From positions 1 to 64,000 of the forward strand of contig NZ_MINO01000012.1 in assembly GCF_001757355.1 (NCBI RefSeq): a stretch of DNA of 64,000 nt. The letters run 5' to 3'. A model generated the notes under the pieces. It was not told the DNA's origin and did not search any database. It saw only the letters and a list, made by a program, of their open reading frames with translations. Every line of letters begins with the position of its first letter. The first letter of the stretch is position 1. Shown here one piece after another: positions 1,199 to 20,349 of this stretch. Origin of the DNA: Sphingobium phenoxybenzoativorans. Lineage in GTDB: Bacteria > Pseudomonadota > Alphaproteobacteria > Sphingomonadales > Sphingomonadaceae. The position numbers were made by a program, and so were the translations under genes.

Positions 1199-1657
<459 letters not shown>

Positions 1658-1749
1658 TCATTATAGGTTTCGCACATGGGCCAAGGGGGGCCCGCGGAAA
1701 ATTGGCCAATCAATCGCTTCTATAAGCCACAACCAAGGAAGGGTTACTC

Positions 1750-3162
1750 ATGGCGAACACGCCCAAAGACATTCTGAGCATGATCAAGGAAAAGGAGATC
1801 GAATGGGTCGATGTCCGTTTCACCGATCCCAAAGGCGTTTGGCATCACCTGACCATGTGTTCGGGCGTGATCGGCGAGGATGAACTGACCGACGGCCTGA
1901 TGTTCGACGGTTCCTCGATCGAGGGCTGGAAGGCGATCAACGAGTCCGACATGATCCTGAAGCCGGATCTGGATGCGGTCTATGTCGATCCGTTCAGCGC
2001 CACGCCGATGATGATCCTGGTGTGCGACATCGTCGAGCCTTCGGACGGTTCGCTTTATTCGCGCGATCCGCGCTCGACCGCCAAGCGCGCCGAAGCCTAT
2101 CTGCAGTCGACCGGCCTGGGCGACACCGTATATATCGGCCCTGAGCCGGAATTCTTCATGTTCGACGACGTGAAGTTCGATAACACCTACAATTCCAGCT
2201 ATTACAAGCTGGACGACGTCGAACTGCCGACCAACACCGGCACGTCTTACGAGAGCGGCAACCTCGGCCACCGTCCGCGCGCCAAGGGCGGCTATTTCCC
2301 GGTCGGCCCGGTCGACGTTACCACCGACATCCGCGCCGAAATGGTCACCACGCTGCTGGAAATGGGCCTGCCCATGGACAAGCATCACCACGAAGTCGCG
2401 GGCAGCCAGCATGAGCTGGGCCTGACCTTCGGCAAGCTGGTGGAAACCTGCGACCGCATCCAGATCTACAAATATGTCGTGAAGATGGTTGCGCAGGCCT
2501 ATGGCAAGACCGCGACCTTCATGCCGAAGCCGATCAAGGCCGACAATGGTTCGGGCATGCACACGCATATCTCGATCTGGAACAAGGGCACCAACACCTT
2601 CGCTGGCGACGGCTATGCCGGTCTTTCCGAGACCTGCCTGTTCTTCATCGGCGGCGTCATCAAGCACGCCAAGGCGCTGAACGCCTTCACCAACCCGACC
2701 ACCAACAGCTACAAGCGTCTGGTGCCGGGCTATGAAGCCCCCGTGCTGCTCGCCTACTCGGCGCGCAACCGTTCCGCCTCCTGCCGTATTCCCTACGGCG
2801 CAGGCACCAAGGCGAAGCGCGTCGAGTTCCGCTTCCCCGATCCGCTCGCCAACTCCTACCTGTCGACCGCAGCGCTGCTGATGGCCGGCATCGACGGCAT
2901 CCAGAACAAGATTCATCCGGGCGAAGCCATGGACAAGAATCTGTACGATCTGCCGCCGGTGGAACTGGCCAAGGTGCCGACCGTCTGCGGTTCGCTCCGC
3001 GAGGCGCTGAACGCCCTAGAAGCCGATCAGGAATTCCTGCTGAAGGGCGGCGTGTTCACCAAGGACCAGATCGACGCCTATCTGGAACTGAAGTGGCCGG
3101 AAGTCGCGCGTTGGGAAATGTCCCCGTCGCCGGTTGAATTCGACATGTATTACAGCGGCTGA
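1750..3162 (+). CDS. glnA: Glutamine synthetase, type I
   Basis: A 470-residue GSI subunit that makes glutamine from glutamate, ammonia and ATP as a cytosolic dodecamer. Visible motifs are DGSSIEGW, the metal/glutamate region with [20 protein letters not shown], the ATP-binding block and [10 protein letters not shown]. Tyr399 in NLYDLPP matches the adenylylation site, so control by GlnE adenylyltransferase together with PII is expected. A good ribosome site (AAGGAAGG) lies 8-10 bases before the ATG. It follows glnB and is closed by a strong terminator at 3186. No NtrC or sigma-54 site was recognised in the short gap between the two genes. Confidence 0.98.
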
Positions 3163-4165: not shown

Positions 4166-4347
4166 CGGACACACGGCTGCTATGTGGGGCAGCGGCGGCG
4201 AAGGGCAAATTCCTGTCCTACATCCCGGCGTCCATGCTCTACTTCCGCACATGGAACAGCATCAGGCACATACCCTGCGCCACGCCCAGGCGATGATCCA
4301 ACCCGTGCTTCCGATGCTATGCAACCGGGGCGCATATGGCGCTCCCC

Positions 4348-4621
4348 TGCGAACACAGTGCGACGCAGGTGCGACGCGCATGAGACCTACATGCGACGCA
4401 GATGAGACTCAGGTGAGACGCACCTGCGACGTGGATGAGACGCACATGCGACCCAAGTGCGACGTGGGTGAGACTCAAGTGAGACGTACATGCGACGCAA
4501 GTGAGACGCATGTGAGACGTAAGTGCGACGTAAGTGCGACGCACATGAGACTTACATGCGACGTACGTGCGACACATGTGAGACCAACATGCGACTTTGT
4601 GCGACCTACATGCGATTTCCC
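4348..4621. repeat. Tandem array of about 25 degenerate 11-bp units, TG(C/A)GAC-N5
   Basis: From 4348 to 4621 the sequence reads as uninterrupted 11-bp units that each begin TGCGAC or TGAGAC followed by five variable bases, most often (C/G)(C/T)A(C/A/G)(A/G). Examples are TGCGACGCAGG at 4359, TGAGACTCAGG at 4403, TGAGACGTACA at 4480 and TGCGACGTACG at 4557. One unit (4590) is 10 bp; the first (TGCGAACACAG) and last (TGCGATTTCCC) are diverged. All units point the same way. Two further isolated TGCGAC sites follow at 4692 and 4725. The rest of the 4166-4775 gap holds no convincing gene; open frames cross the array on both strands because the unit length is not a multiple of three (see findings). 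The array ends 155 bp before the TonB receptor gene. Confidence 0.95.
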
Positions 4622-4775
4622 GGCCAAAACCGCTCACAACCCGCAACTTCCGCAACTTCGCCCTCCGGCCGGTCGCATCCCCGTTACACTTTGCGACAAA
4701 CTGCCCCATGCCCTGCCACTGTTCTGCGACAGTTCATTTCTAGGAGGGCAGGGCTGAACATCATTTGGGGGTTTC

Positions 4776-7607
4776 ATGATTCGTCGTTCTTCTGCGCTGT
4801 GCCTTTCCCTGATGCTGGGCACTGCGCCCGGCGCGGTGCTGGCACAGGATGCCGACCGTCCCCGCATGGCGACGGGCGCCTCGCAGGACATGGCGGGGGA
4901 CGATCTGGGCGAGGAAATATTCGTTACCGGTGAGCGGCAGCGCGGATCGGTGATGGGGGATATCAAGCCGGAGCAGCAGCTAAGCCCCGCCGATATCCGC
5001 GCCTTCGGCGTGACATCCGTGTCCGAATTGCTGAGCGAACTCGCTCCGCAGGTCAACGCCGCGGGCGGAAGCCCCGTAGTGTTGCTGAACGGGAAGCGCA
5101 TATCCGCCTTCGCCGAAATCCAGGACTTGCCGACGGAAGCCATAGCGCGCGTGGATATCCTGCCGGAGCAGGTGGCGCTCAGCTATGGCTATTCCCCCAA
5201 TCAGAAGGTCGTGAACATTGTCCTGCGCCAGCGATTTCGCGCCGAATTGGCGGATATGCGCGGCGGCATCGCCACTGATGGCGGGCGGGAGAATGGCAAT
5301 CTGAACGGCAGCATATTGCGGATCAGGGGCGACAACCGCTTTACCTTGGATCTGAAATACAGCCGGGCGGCGCAATTGCTGGAAAGTGAGAGGGGCGTCA
5401 CATCCGCGGCCCCTTCCCGTCCATTCGCCCTGGGCGGCAATATCACTGCATTGACCACCGGCGGCGAGATCGATCCGTCGCTCTCCGCGCTGGCCGGTCA
5501 AACCGTGACGGTGGCTCCAGTGCCGGGAGGCGCGGCGAACGCAGCGCCCGCACTGGGCGATTTTGTGGCGGGGGCCAATAGCGCCAGCGTAAGCGATGTC
5601 AGCCGCTATCGCACGCTCAGCCCCGCGACGGAGAGCTTTTCCGCCAATGCTACGCTGGCCCGCGCGCTGGGCAATGTCTCGACCTCGATTAACGGCAGGA
5701 TCGAGTTGAGCGATAGCGATTCCCTTCAGGGGTTGCCGTCACTGGCGCTCACGCTGCCGGGTGGAAGCCCCTTTTCGCCCTTCGTCAATGACACGCGGCT
5801 CTACCGCTATCTCGATCAGGCCGGCGCGCTGGCGCAGCAGGTGCGCGGGACGACCGGCCATGTTGGCGTGACGCTGAACGGCGGGTTGATGAAGGGGTGG
5901 CAATGGTCCTTCACCGGTGCGGGCGACCTGTCCGACACCCGCACGCGAACGGATCGCGGATTTTCTCCGAATGCCGCTCAATCCTTGCTGAATGCTGGTG
6001 ACGGAACATTCAATCCCTATGGCGCGCTGCCCGACGCTGTGCTGTCGGACCGTCTGACCGATCGGGCAAAATCGCGGTATCGCGCCGTTGTCGGTGACCT
6101 GCTGCTCAGCGGGTCGCTGTTCGACCTCCCCGCAGGCACGGCAACGACATCGATCACTTTGGGCGCGTCGGCCAATGGCTTCGACAGCAGTTCGATGCGA
6201 TCAGGGACAGCGTTCAATGCCAGCTATTCCCGCGAGATTGTGAGCGGACAGGCGAGCATCGATCTGCCGATCACAAGCCGCAGCCGGGACGTTCTTGGCG
6301 CGATCGGCGACCTGGGCGTCAACATCAATGCAGGCGTGCAGGAGCTGTCGGATTTCGGCACGCTGTCCACGCTCGGTTATGGCCTGCGCTGGACTCCGGT
6401 GACACAGGTCCGATTCCTCGTTTCCGCAAGTCAGGACCGCGCCGCGCCGACCGGACAGCAGATCAACGACCCGTCGATCATCACGCCCAACGTGTCGGTA
6501 TTCGACTATGCTCGTGGCGAAACGGTGTTCATCACCCAGATTTCCGGTGGCAACGCAGCCCTGAATGAAAGCGTGCGCGACCAGTTCCGGGTGGGGGTCA
6601 CGATCAAGCCGCTGCAGAAAACCAACCTGACACTGACCGCCAACTATCTTAACAGCCGGACCAGCAATCCTATTTCCGCCTTCCCCTCGCCCACTCCAGC
6701 GATCGAGGCGGCCTTCCCGCAACGCTTCATGCGGGACGAGGATGGAGCGTTGCTGCAAATCGATTCCCGGCCCATCAATTTCCTGCGGTCGCAAAGCGAA
6801 CAACTGCGCTGGGGCGTCGACCTCTCCATCCCGATCAAGTCGGCGATCCAGAAAAAGTTCGAAGCATGGCGCGCGAATGGATCGAAGCCTGAAGAACGCC
6901 CGACGGACCTGCGCGCGCTGTTCGGCAATCGCGGTCCCGGTGGAGACCGGCCGGGCGGCGAAGGCGGCAACCGGGATGACAATAACCAGCGCAATCAGGG
7001 ACCGGGCGGTCCCGGTCAAGGCGCCGGCGGCGATCGTGGCCCAGGCGGTGGTGGTCCGGGTGGCGGTGGACCCGGCGGCGGCGGATTTGGCGGCGGCCGG
7101 GGACCGGGCGGCGGTCAGGGCGGCGGGCGCATTCAGCTCAGCCTCTACCACACCTGGCATCTGACGGAATCGATCCTCATCGCGCCGGGCGTGCCGATGC
7201 TTGATCTGTTGGACGGCGACGCCACCGGATCATCGGGCGGCCAGCCAAGGCATGAGATTGAGGCGCGGGCAGGCTATGTGAATAACGGCCTTGGCGCGCG
7301 GCTGAGCGTCAATTGGGAGAGCGGCACGCATGTCGATGGCGCGCTGGGCGGCAATTCGCGATTGGATTTCGGCAGCCTCGCCACCGCCGACCTGCGCCTG
7401 TTCGCCAATCTGGGCCAGATGCCGGCGTTGGTGAAAAACCATCCCTTCCTGCGCGGCGCGCGCGTTTCGCTGGGCATCACCAACATCTTCAACACCCGCC
7501 GCAATGTGACGGATGCGACGGGCGCGACGCCATTGCGCTATCAGCCCGGCTATCTTGATCCAATCGGCCGCGCCGTGACGCTCAGCTTCCGCAAATTATT
7601 CTTTTAG
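4776..7607 (+). CDS. TonB-dependent outer-membrane receptor with Gly-rich insertion
   Basis: A 943-residue protein. Residues 1-24 form a signal peptide (ending AVLAQ), followed by a TonB-box-like EEIFVTGER. The plug domain includes VVLLNGKRISAF, LPTEAIARVDILPEQ and QKVVNIVLR; the rest is a predicted beta-barrel ending in YLDPIGRAVTLSFRKLFF, with the terminal aromatic typical of outer-membrane proteins. Such receptors import siderophores, sugars or other large solutes using TonB energy; the ligand here is unknown. About residues 715-790 are a low-complexity Gly/Pro/Arg/Asn segment that must be an exposed loop or periplasmic linker, which is unusual. The gene follows the 11-bp repeat array. Its 3' end overlaps the convergent amidase gene by 4 bp. 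Confidence 0.9.
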   Translation: MIRRSSALCLSLMLGTAPGAVLAQDADRPRMATGASQDMAGDDLGEEIFVTGERQRGSVMGDIKPEQQLSPADIRAFGVTSVSELLSELAPQVNAAGGSPVVLLNGKRISAFAEIQDLPTEAIARVDILPEQVALSYGYSPNQKVVNIVLRQRFRAELADMRGGIATDGGRENGNLNGSILRIRGDNRFTLDLKYSRAAQLLESERGVTSAAPSRPFALGGNITALTTGGEIDPSLSALAGQTVTVAPVPGGAANAAPALGDFVAGANSASVSDVSRYRTLSPATESFSANATLARALGNVSTSINGRIELSDSDSLQGLPSLALTLPGGSPFSPFVNDTRLYRYLDQAGALAQQVRGTTGHVGVTLNGGLMKGWQWSFTGAGDLSDTRTRTDRGFSPNAAQSLLNAGDGTFNPYGALPDAVLSDRLTDRAKSRYRAVVGDLLLSGSLFDLPAGTATTSITLGASANGFDSSSMRSGTAFNASYSREIVSGQASIDLPITSRSRDVLGAIGDLGVNINAGVQELSDFGTLSTLGYGLRWTPVTQVRFLVSASQDRAAPTGQQINDPSIITPNVSVFDYARGETVFITQISGGNAALNESVRDQFRVGVTIKPLQKTNLTLTANYLNSRTSNPISAFPSPTPAIEAAFPQRFMRDEDGALLQIDSRPINFLRSQSEQLRWGVDLSIPIKSAIQKKFEAWRANGSKPEERPTDLRALFGNRGPGGDRPGGEGGNRDDNNQRNQGPGGPGQGAGGDRGPGGGGPGGGGPGGGGFGGGRGPGGGQGGGRIQLSLYHTWHLTESILIAPGVPMLDLLDGDATGSSGGQPRHEIEARAGYVNNGLGARLSVNWESGTHVDGALGGNSRLDFGSLATADLRLFANLGQMPALVKNHPFLRGARVSLGITNIFNTRRNVTDATGATPLRYQPGYLDPIGRAVTLSFRKLFF

Positions 7608-18968: not shown

Positions 18969-19344
18969 CTGGCTCTCCGAAACGAGGGGCGGCAGGTGGA
19001 TCGTCCTGCCGACCGATACTGCTGATTGAGCGGGCCTATAGCCAGCGGCATAGGGCGACACAAGCGTTCAATAACTGCAACGGCAAGACCGTTAACGATG
19101 GCTGGGGATAAGTCGGCATAACGGCCCGCAGCCAACCCCCTGTTTACCTTTGCCAATCACCGCGTCCCGGCGCGGAACATTAACCATATTCGTTGATCGG
19201 ACTGTTCAATGTTTCCCGATCCGGCACGCACATTCAGGGTTAATATGGTTGCAGTTAACCCGTCTTTTGCGTTTCTGACCCTAATAGATGCCTCCGCGCG
19301 CCAAGGACCAGGCGTTGGACGGGGTGATAACAAGAGTGTCGGAT

Positions 19345-20349
19345 ATGTCGGTTAGAATGGCTATGGCGAAACTCTGCGCATGTGCATGTGGTGGAGCAAT
19401 CATCGGTGGCGGCGCGGTCCATGTCGCTGAATCGCCGCGTCCTGCGGTCGTCAAGCAGACGAAGAAAGCCTATGCCAAGCCGCGTCATGTTGCGCGGACC
19501 GTGAAGCGCAAGACGGTGCGGACAGTCACGTCCTGCACGCCCGCCGTCGTCACAGTCGCCGGGCAGCCCGTTCCGCCAATGCCGATGGCTCCCGTCGCAC
19601 CGCTGGCCGCTGGACCTTCGATCGTGTCCGGCGGCGGGCCGGTTCCTGTCGTGATGGGCGGCAGCGGCGGCTTCGGCGGCGGGTCGAGCGGATTTTTCGG
19701 CGGTTTCTTTGGCGGAAGCGGCGGCGGTAGCGGCGGAAGCGTCGTGGTTTCCTCGACCAGCAGTTCTACCGGATCGACAAGCACCTCCAGCGGCGTGTCC
19801 ACCTCAACTGGCGGCGTGTCGACATCCACAGGCGGTGTTTCCACATCTACAGGGGGCGTTTCGACCTCCACCGGCGGCGTGTCGACTTCAACCTCTACCG
19901 GTGGCGTATCCACGTCTACGGGCGGCGTATCGACATCTTCGGGCAATGTCAGCACATCGTCCGGCGTGAGCAGCACGTCCTCCTCGTCCAGCTCATCCTC
20001 ATCCAGTTCTTCATCGTCCTCATCATCCTCGTCGAGCAGCTCCGGTGGCACGACCAGCAATGGCGGATCGACAGGATCGTCATCCTCGACCGGCAGCAGC
20101 GGGTCGTCGAGCACGTCGACGGGCTCCTCCAGCTTCGGCACCACTACGTCGAGCAGTTCAGGCAGCAGCTCCAGCAGTTCTTCGTCTAGCAGCTCCTCCT
20201 CCGGTGGATCGAGCAGCAGCAGCGGCGGCACAGACGTTCCCGCGCCGCCAATGATCCTGCTATTCGGTGCTGCCGCGGCGGCTTTGGTCGCTCGCCGCCG
20301 CTTCGCTGCTAAGGCAAAGGCGGACGACACGGTTTCGGACGCAGCCTGA
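19345..20349 (+). CDS. Ser/Thr-repeat exported protein with VPAP (PEP-CTERM-like) sorting tail
   Basis: A protein of about 334 residues. The N-terminal hydrophobic stretch (AKLCACACGGAIIGGGAVHV) may be a signal segment. A Gly-rich region (FGGGSSGFFGGFFGG) leads into seven GVSTSTG repeats, then long Ser tracts built from mixed Ser codons. The C-terminus has VPAPPMILLFG, a hydrophobic helix and then ARRRF: the Pro motif, helix and Arg cluster of PEP-CTERM/exosortase sorting signals. This suggests a surface or exopolysaccharide-associated protein, possibly O-glycosylated on Ser/Thr. Start is uncertain; an earlier ATG at 19288 adds 19 residues. Confidence 0.7.
   Translation: MSVRMAMAKLCACACGGAIIGGGAVHVAESPRPAVVKQTKKAYAKPRHVARTVKRKTVRTVTSCTPAVVTVAGQPVPPMPMAPVAPLAAGPSIVSGGGPVPVVMGGSGGFGGGSSGFFGGFFGGSGGGSGGSVVVSSTSSSTGSTSTSSGVSTSTGGVSTSTGGVSTSTGGVSTSTGGVSTSTSTGGVSTSTGGVSTSSGNVSTSSGVSSTSSSSSSSSSSSSSSSSSSSSSSGGTTSNGGSTGSSSSTGSSGSSSTSTGSSSFGTTTSSSSGSSSSSSSSSSSSSGGSSSSSGGTDVPAPPMILLFGAAAAALVARRRFAAKAKADDTVSDAA
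19792..19944 (+). repeat. 21-bp tandem repeat coding GVSTSTG
   Basis: Seven in-frame copies begin GGCGT(G/T/A)TC(C/G)AC, each 21 bp except the fifth, which is 27 bp with an extra Ser-Thr pair. Third positions vary between copies while the amino acids are conserved, which points to selection on the protein repeat and not recent slippage alone. Confidence 0.9.

Follow-up and report, generated by a model that had tools for sequence, protein, structure and literature searches.

Phage late regulators depend on direct repeats situated at their own gene's 3' end, as in the example of phi13 Ltr (PMC13123087). For TP901-1 Alt, the section of the same source consulted here gives four repeats in the region from -76 to -32, and each therefore takes up about 11 bp by our arithmetic. 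In phage SPP1, the pac site has direct repeats by the small-terminase gene (PMC4737164, consulted in part). StbA of plasmid R388 acts on two sets of five 9-bp direct repeats (stbDRs), which have a two-base spacing and lie beside its gene (PMC3098194, in part). Pneumococcal BOX elements are dispersed and modular, with fixed ends and variable inner units, and are often found between convergent genes (PMC3049150, in part). In this article, we describe a chromosomal element in which a small HTH protein gene is followed by an 11-bp array. A search of the open literature, outside of which most subscription papers lie, found no description of this element.

The array is found in the window, which is the whole stretch of 64,000 nucleotides of Sphingobium phenoxybenzoativorans DNA that was analysed. 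On the + strand at 4348-4621, 25 units of TG(A/C)GAC-N5 follow one another with a period of 11 bp and a single 10-bp step, from 4590 to 4600, as the first-pass annotation had correctly reported. The sequence TG(A/C)GAC is exact in 23 of the 25 units, the exceptions being the first (TGCGAA) and the last (TGCGAT). T1, G2, G4, and A5 of the core are each present in 25/25 units, and position 3 is split between C (15 units) and A (10 units). Up to the slip, TGC recurs at every third unit, and for this reason a 33-bp period outscores the 11-bp period in Tandem Repeats Finder (215 vs 119). Among 100 random 64-kb sequences with matching first-order composition, one had a longest exact run of two units, and in the other 99 the longest was one unit. 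The array is not a product of chance.

The DNA helix has approximately 10.5 bp per turn. An 11-bp step therefore rotates each core by about 17 degrees, so that 23 units make about one winding and only neighbours share a face. The earlier proposal that every core lies on nearly the same face is not borne out by this geometry. The GACTC sites that it noted in the units starting at 4403 and 4469 are present, at 4406 and 4472. However, GANTC is not a fixed feature of the arrays: units acquire it through a TC spacer, and the TGTCGC units that were read lack it. Two lone TGCGACA sites, at 4692-4698 and 4725-4731, lie on the array strand between the array and a downstream receptor-like gene.

A dispersed element spans approximately 4214-4665, and the window array serves as its repeat module, with flanks conserved beyond the array itself. 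All parts lie on the + strand. The 5' block (4214-4250) contains TGTCCTAC at 4214-4221 and TCTACTTCC at 4238-4246 and is promoter-like by position only. It is followed by a left-over start, ATGGAACAG (4251-4259), and a spacer that reaches to 4347. After the array, the 3' block (4616-4665) runs from TTTCCCGGCCAAAACC to CCGCAACTTCCGCAACTTCG and overlaps the last unit. No clear -10 sequence is seen by eye after the window array, unlike the phage arrays described below. The receptor-like gene at 4776-7607 lies outside the element.

Similarity searching of the own genome (G000) gave 18 matches, which correspond to 16 arrays after joining two split ones. The copies that were read with their flanks share a common plan of 5' block, array, and 3' block. 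TGTCCTAC is present in 15/16 copies and missing in L077, and CCGCAACTTCCGCAAC is found in the 3' block of 16/16. One copy, L080, bears an HTH gene. In this copy, ATGGAACAG opens the gene for a protein of 104 amino acids (P0001), whose stop codon is located 50 bp before the array. Since the own genome has a single close copy of this gene, plus two weak matches elsewhere, the other 15 arrays, including that of the window, are gene-less. A second species of the genus, G364, has an HTH relative that is 85% identical and likewise stands before an array. This genome appears to be that of the Sphingobium MAG nzgw534, since the arrays on its contigs have identical readings.

Four exact TGMGAC units were found in the own genome only, among 298 sampled genomes of the family, and the element itself was matched clearly in the own genome and in G364 among 94 genomes of the genus. 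One marginal match each was obtained in G352 and G373 (E 4e-4 and 5.5e-4), in a search that scored up to seven candidates per genome. The neutral microsatellite that the first-pass annotation gave as its alternative does not fit either, although the unit number does vary. Whole units have been gained or lost between G000 and G364 at shared sites. Four arrays occupy the same sites in both species, where their flanks are 77 to 89% identical, and the core is conserved. In the one array pair that was counted, the five other core positions differed in 1/65 cases, position 3 in 2/13, and the spacers in 7/65 (p 0.06 for core against spacer).

The surroundings of the copies vary. Simple gene calls based on GC by codon position place a convergent gene on the 3' side of 11 of the 16 own-genome copies and a codirectional one on that of five, some of these genes being far away. 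Of nine neighbouring genes scanned, one has no match and eight match unrelated cellular families, for example pyruvate kinase, prephenate dehydratase, and a transporter. No packaging or phage gene was found among these nine, with the neighbours of L080 partly covered. The copies near gene ends are more likely to be tolerated insertions than operators of their neighbours. The fact that gene-less copies mostly face gene ends fits a parasitic repeat as well.

P0001 is predicted to fold into four helices with an HTH (mean pLDDT 72 in the structure model), and a fold search with this model gave no PDB match at E ≤ 0.001. The closest PHROG is the small terminase phrog_4044 (E 5.6e-6), and the match is limited to residues 25-81, the HTH region. 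No Pfam family was found above the cut-off for P0001, and one relative matches Pfam Terminase_2 below the cut-off (E 9.6e-4). P0001 has no match to phrog_36 or phrog_248, which represent activators of the RinA/Ltr/ArpU type. No relatives were detected in the phage and plasmid records searched or by a single-protein scan of viral contigs. Across the 25 closest pairs of HTH genes, dN/dS ranges from 0.15 to 0.82, and the value for the pair of the window lineage is 0.62.

Relatives of the HTH protein occur in 72/94 genomes of the genus at E 1e-6, a count that includes longer homologues. For loci chosen by protein similarity, the periodicity was measured over 300 bp downstream of the HTH stop codon. 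In the first set, where the 11-bp periodicity was first noticed and from which the unparsed L264 and L270 are left out, 11 bp was the best lag in 22.5/27 loci (ties shared), and z > 3 was reached in 21/27. The control stretches of this set gave z > 3 in 0/27, 0/26, and 0/27. A second set of 20 paralogues was taken from the same list, and 16 were parsed (L500, L501, L504, and L509 were left out). In this set, the best lag was 11 in 16/16 loci and z exceeded 3 in 15/16, compared with 1/16 in the upstream control; one of these loci, L518, is not blind, since it overlaps a place already listed as an array match. Two small HTH relatives from other genera gave z of 5.5 and 5.9 at 11 bp, and 12 longer homologues gave at most 2.8, in a test in which 14/28 loci were unparsed.

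In 27/30 loci, the start is immediately preceded by a block resembling TCTGATCTATCCT-N4-GATG, as judged by eye with substitutions allowed, and AACTTC follows within 420 bp in 26/30. At 12/27 loci, the stop codon coincides with the beginning of the first unit found, a count that is favoured by the stop TGA contributing two of the unit's letters. A neighbour is common to the members of several groups of loci, while the other loci have none in common. Because of these groups, the HTH loci are not all independent, and those that share a neighbour probably represent the same site in different species. The complete element consists of a 5' block, a gene for an HTH protein of about 100 amino acids, an 11-bp array (general core TGNSRC) that begins at the stop codon or shortly downstream of it, and a 3' block that is conserved.

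The core of the array varies with the recognition helix of the HTH protein. The comparison covered 47 loci, and the types are defined by the residues at the start of this helix. Beside SR-type helices, xGTCGC is found in 114/226 units. Beside SP-type helices, xGGCGC is found in 40/88 and xGTCGC in 9/88. The SR and SP types (27 and 15 loci) differ with p 4.6e-7, in a statistic that ignores ancestry. The only two proteins of the T(S/A)R type that were seen are accompanied by GA cores in 18/18 and 10/12 units.

Cores are also shared among the dispersed arrays of one genome. GA occupies core positions 4-5 in 220/234 units of 13 arrays of G000 and in 65/72 units of six arrays of G364. CG occupies these positions in 69/77 units of eight arrays of G331 and in 59/65 units of nine arrays of G325, although a single array served as the query in finding the arrays of these two genomes, a procedure biased towards the query's own core. 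These counts leave out L083, L084, and the window array. The window's element had no match in G331 or G325, and the TGTCGC array had none in G000 or G364, where an empty match list by itself shows nothing. Dispersed arrays of the TGTCGC kind gave 16 matches in G331, including the query's own place, and 13 in G325. One match was obtained in G372, three in G334, and none in G254, which belongs to another genus, so that many dispersed copies are documented for only part of the genomes. At five loci of this kind that were read, the gap between leader and array is too small for an HTH gene, by eye. The sharing of a core within a genome, seen with one query per genome, is the trace expected of a partner that acts in trans and has a specificity of its own.

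We favour, with moderate confidence, a model in which the HTH protein of the dispersed element fills its own array co-operatively and acts in trans on the gene-less copies, in the manner of phage late regulators. The protein would bind one core per 11 bp. The filled array would form a slowly winding nucleoprotein filament rather than one flat face, because 11 bp exceeds the helical turn by about 17 degrees. The protein may act first on its own transcription unit and also on gene-less arrays elsewhere. It would work like the late regulators, whose function depends on direct repeats where their own gene ends (3'). The array is probably the own docking site of the HTH protein that the complete form encodes. 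Possible outcomes of the putative filling are regulation, a nucleoprotein mark, DNA packaging, and selfish spread. The idea of a multi-site platform, put forward in the first-pass annotation, thus gains indirect support from the HTH gene beside the array, the recurrent pairs, and the covariation of core and helix, while its tie to the receptor gene finds no support.

The layout of the element resembles that of the phage late regulators (RinA, Ltr, the DUF1492/ArpU type, and TP901-1 Alt), in which a small DNA-binding protein gene stands directly before direct repeats. Here too, the repeats are located at the end of the HTH gene or directly after it. Unlike these systems, P0001 has no match to the activator PHROGs, and the arrays are longer, lie, by the neighbours scanned, among ordinary chromosomal genes instead of before phage packaging or late genes, and include many gene-less copies. 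The late regulators thus offer a precedent of layout rather than a family assignment, since the closest PHROG of P0001 is a small terminase and its Pfam scan gave no family above the cut-off. REPs are palindromes, and RAYTs are tyrosine transposases. One gene-bearing place plus many gene-less dispersed copies is a pattern that the element has in common with REP/RAYT, but it has a lone HTH protein and direct arrays, and Pfam gave no tyrosine transposase domain in P0001, which has an HTH only. The repeats of the element and the stbDRs both have an 11-bp period and adjoin the gene of a DNA-binding protein (PMC3098194, in part). In contrast, the R388 repeats precede the gene, are found on plasmids, and have the core TTGCATCAT, and the StbA model has no match in the Pfam scan of P0001.

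A broader reading, which we offer only tentatively, regards the element as a self-contained dispersing recognition system. A lone HTH protein, perhaps derived from a phage small terminase or late regulator, would co-evolve with 11-bp arrays of up to 25 sites and mark at least a dozen chromosomal places per genome. The system might be an interspersed element that relies on a non-catalytic binding protein for its spread or upkeep, or a set of packaging or nucleoid-organising sites. If the proposed pairing of HTH protein and array is right, it would provide protein-operator pairs in a natural series, with the recognition helix and the core of the array changing in step, and this series would help in the study of HTH specificity and of the co-operative filling of helically spaced sites. 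The pairing also poses the question of how a repeat without its own transposase spreads and keeps one core genome-wide.

Another explanation is an interspersed repeat of the BOX or MITE kind, whose ends spread with outside help and whose tandem middle expands freely, the HTH gene being a passenger. The 16 copies with common ends and the gain and loss of units between species suit this explanation, as does the convergent 3'-side gene in 11/16 copies, an orientation often seen for pneumococcal BOX (PMC3049150, in part). Both are dispersed and modular, with ends that are fixed and inner units that vary in number, which we take as an analogy of form and not as sequence kinship. The element differs from BOX in its 11-bp inner unit, whose core is fixed, and in having a full-length form that carries an HTH gene. 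A passenger gene does not account for a periodicity that follows the HTH gene at many different loci or for a core that varies with the HTH helix, and we regard this explanation as unlikely. The ends of an rve-type insertion sequence were rejected as the main reading, as no pairs of TGVGAC units were found at the nine rve-domain loci that were searched for a parent transposon with the same ends.

The similarity of P0001 to small terminases invites the view that the arrays are pac-like sites for a phage or gene-transfer particle that packages chromosomal DNA. The PHROG match, the sub-threshold Terminase_2 match of a relative, and the direct repeats by the small-terminase gene in SPP1 pac (PMC4737164, in part) speak for it. 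However, the element protein has about 100 amino acids and its match covers the HTH only, no relative appeared in the phage and plasmid records searched or in the viral-contig scan, and the arrays lie among ordinary genes, with no phage or packaging gene among the scanned neighbours. We consider a packaging mark very improbable.

The left-over start opens a frame of 168 amino acids (4251-4757, + strand) that passes through the array as an 11-residue repeat, and gene-less copies might accordingly be read as genes for a repeat protein. Such a frame is open through the array in 10/16 gene-less copies with a start (8/12 in G000 and 2/4 in G364, one of them doubtful), and the in-phase third base is never A in four related copies (28/28). 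Against this, the frame is closed in the remaining 6/16, an in-phase A occurs in 11/73 overall, the core persists in every one of the three codon phases, for which a protein by itself would have no need, and the array follows the stop codon in full-length copies. The frame is probably a by-product, and a conserved repeat protein, rejected as the main reading on the closed copies, has little credibility. A known structured RNA was likewise rejected: five loci gave no Rfam match at the gathering threshold, and the folding of the window transcript barely beats that of shuffles (z -2.3; 2/100 shuffles as good).

The view of the first-pass annotation, in which the receptor gene at 4776 is served by the array as a multi-site operator or a nucleoid platform, is equally hard to credit: the array ends about 155 bp before this start on the same strand, but the upstream regions of 28 related receptor-like genes contain no stretch reaching z 3, compared with 9.6 in the window, so that 0/28 have an 11-bp array (L281, without a gene match, is left out of this count), and other copies lie beside unrelated genes, mostly facing gene ends. 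This result led us to reject a receptor operator as the main reading and does not bear out the expectation that such arrays stand before outer-membrane receptor genes. Searches of Pfam (E ≤ 1e-5), of NCBIfam (E ≤ 0.1), and of the PDB sequences (E ≤ 0.01) gave no match behind the receptor label itself. The protein contains a Gly/Pro-rich stretch of the GPGGG type at 7036-7096.

Arrays of similar form are found beyond the genus. A scan of genome contigs for five TGVGAC units gave at least 111 stretches in many phyla, which is no census because many of the 80 listed are near-perfect tandem repeats. In viral contigs, 10/23 TGVGAC-N5 loci have variable spacers (entropy above 0.75), compared with 0/9 for the reversed core and 0/5 for 10-bp spacing. 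At 12-bp spacing, variable spacers were seen in nine among the 80 listed of 120 loci, mostly codon-phased by eye. An HTH-like frame ends at the array in three of the 10 variable-spacer viral loci (L220, L222, and L227), and strong family support exists for L222 only. In L222, a DUF1492-type gene that matches a phage transcriptional activator (E 2.9e-20) stands directly before a TGGGAC-N5 array. By eye, a -10-like sequence is located a short distance downstream of the array in several of the variable-spacer viral loci, and the arrays of L222, L220, and L227, after HTH-type genes and before such sequences, are possible late-gene operators. Phage-wide scans for an HTH gene plus array, with a single protein each, found one and two loci. 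Among five DUF1492-type loci read, a long array was present only at the query's own (L444, on the same contig as L222).

Further arrays were observed in passing. In a viral contig of 47 kb (L219), a TGCGAC array at 7234-7294 has spacers like those of the window element and sits inside a frame weakly similar to replication initiators. The Dehalococcoidia sequence OY282365.1 contains many dispersed TGCGAC-N5 arrays with common flanking blocks, apparently a separate family of the same form, at 15 loci (L109, L113, L114, L123, L125, L128, L131, L139, L140, L144, L149, L152, L160, L168, and L184). Erysipelotrichaceae MAGs (L156 and L161) have several TGAGAC-N5 arrays per contig, mostly after GGTGGACAA or close variants. 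Intergenic TGCGAC-N5 or TGAGAC-N5 arrays with variable spacers and flanks similar within each group are seen in one Bacteroidetes MAG (L111, L127, and L154) and in Achromobacter (L115 and L130). Elsewhere in the window, the translations of frames at 1199-3162 resemble, by eye, a PII signal protein and glutamine synthetase. A protein of 353 amino acids encoded at 19288-20349 has STSTGGV-type repeats, with tandem repeats at 19790-19938, and ends in what we take, by eye, to be a C-terminal PEP-CTERM sorting signal.
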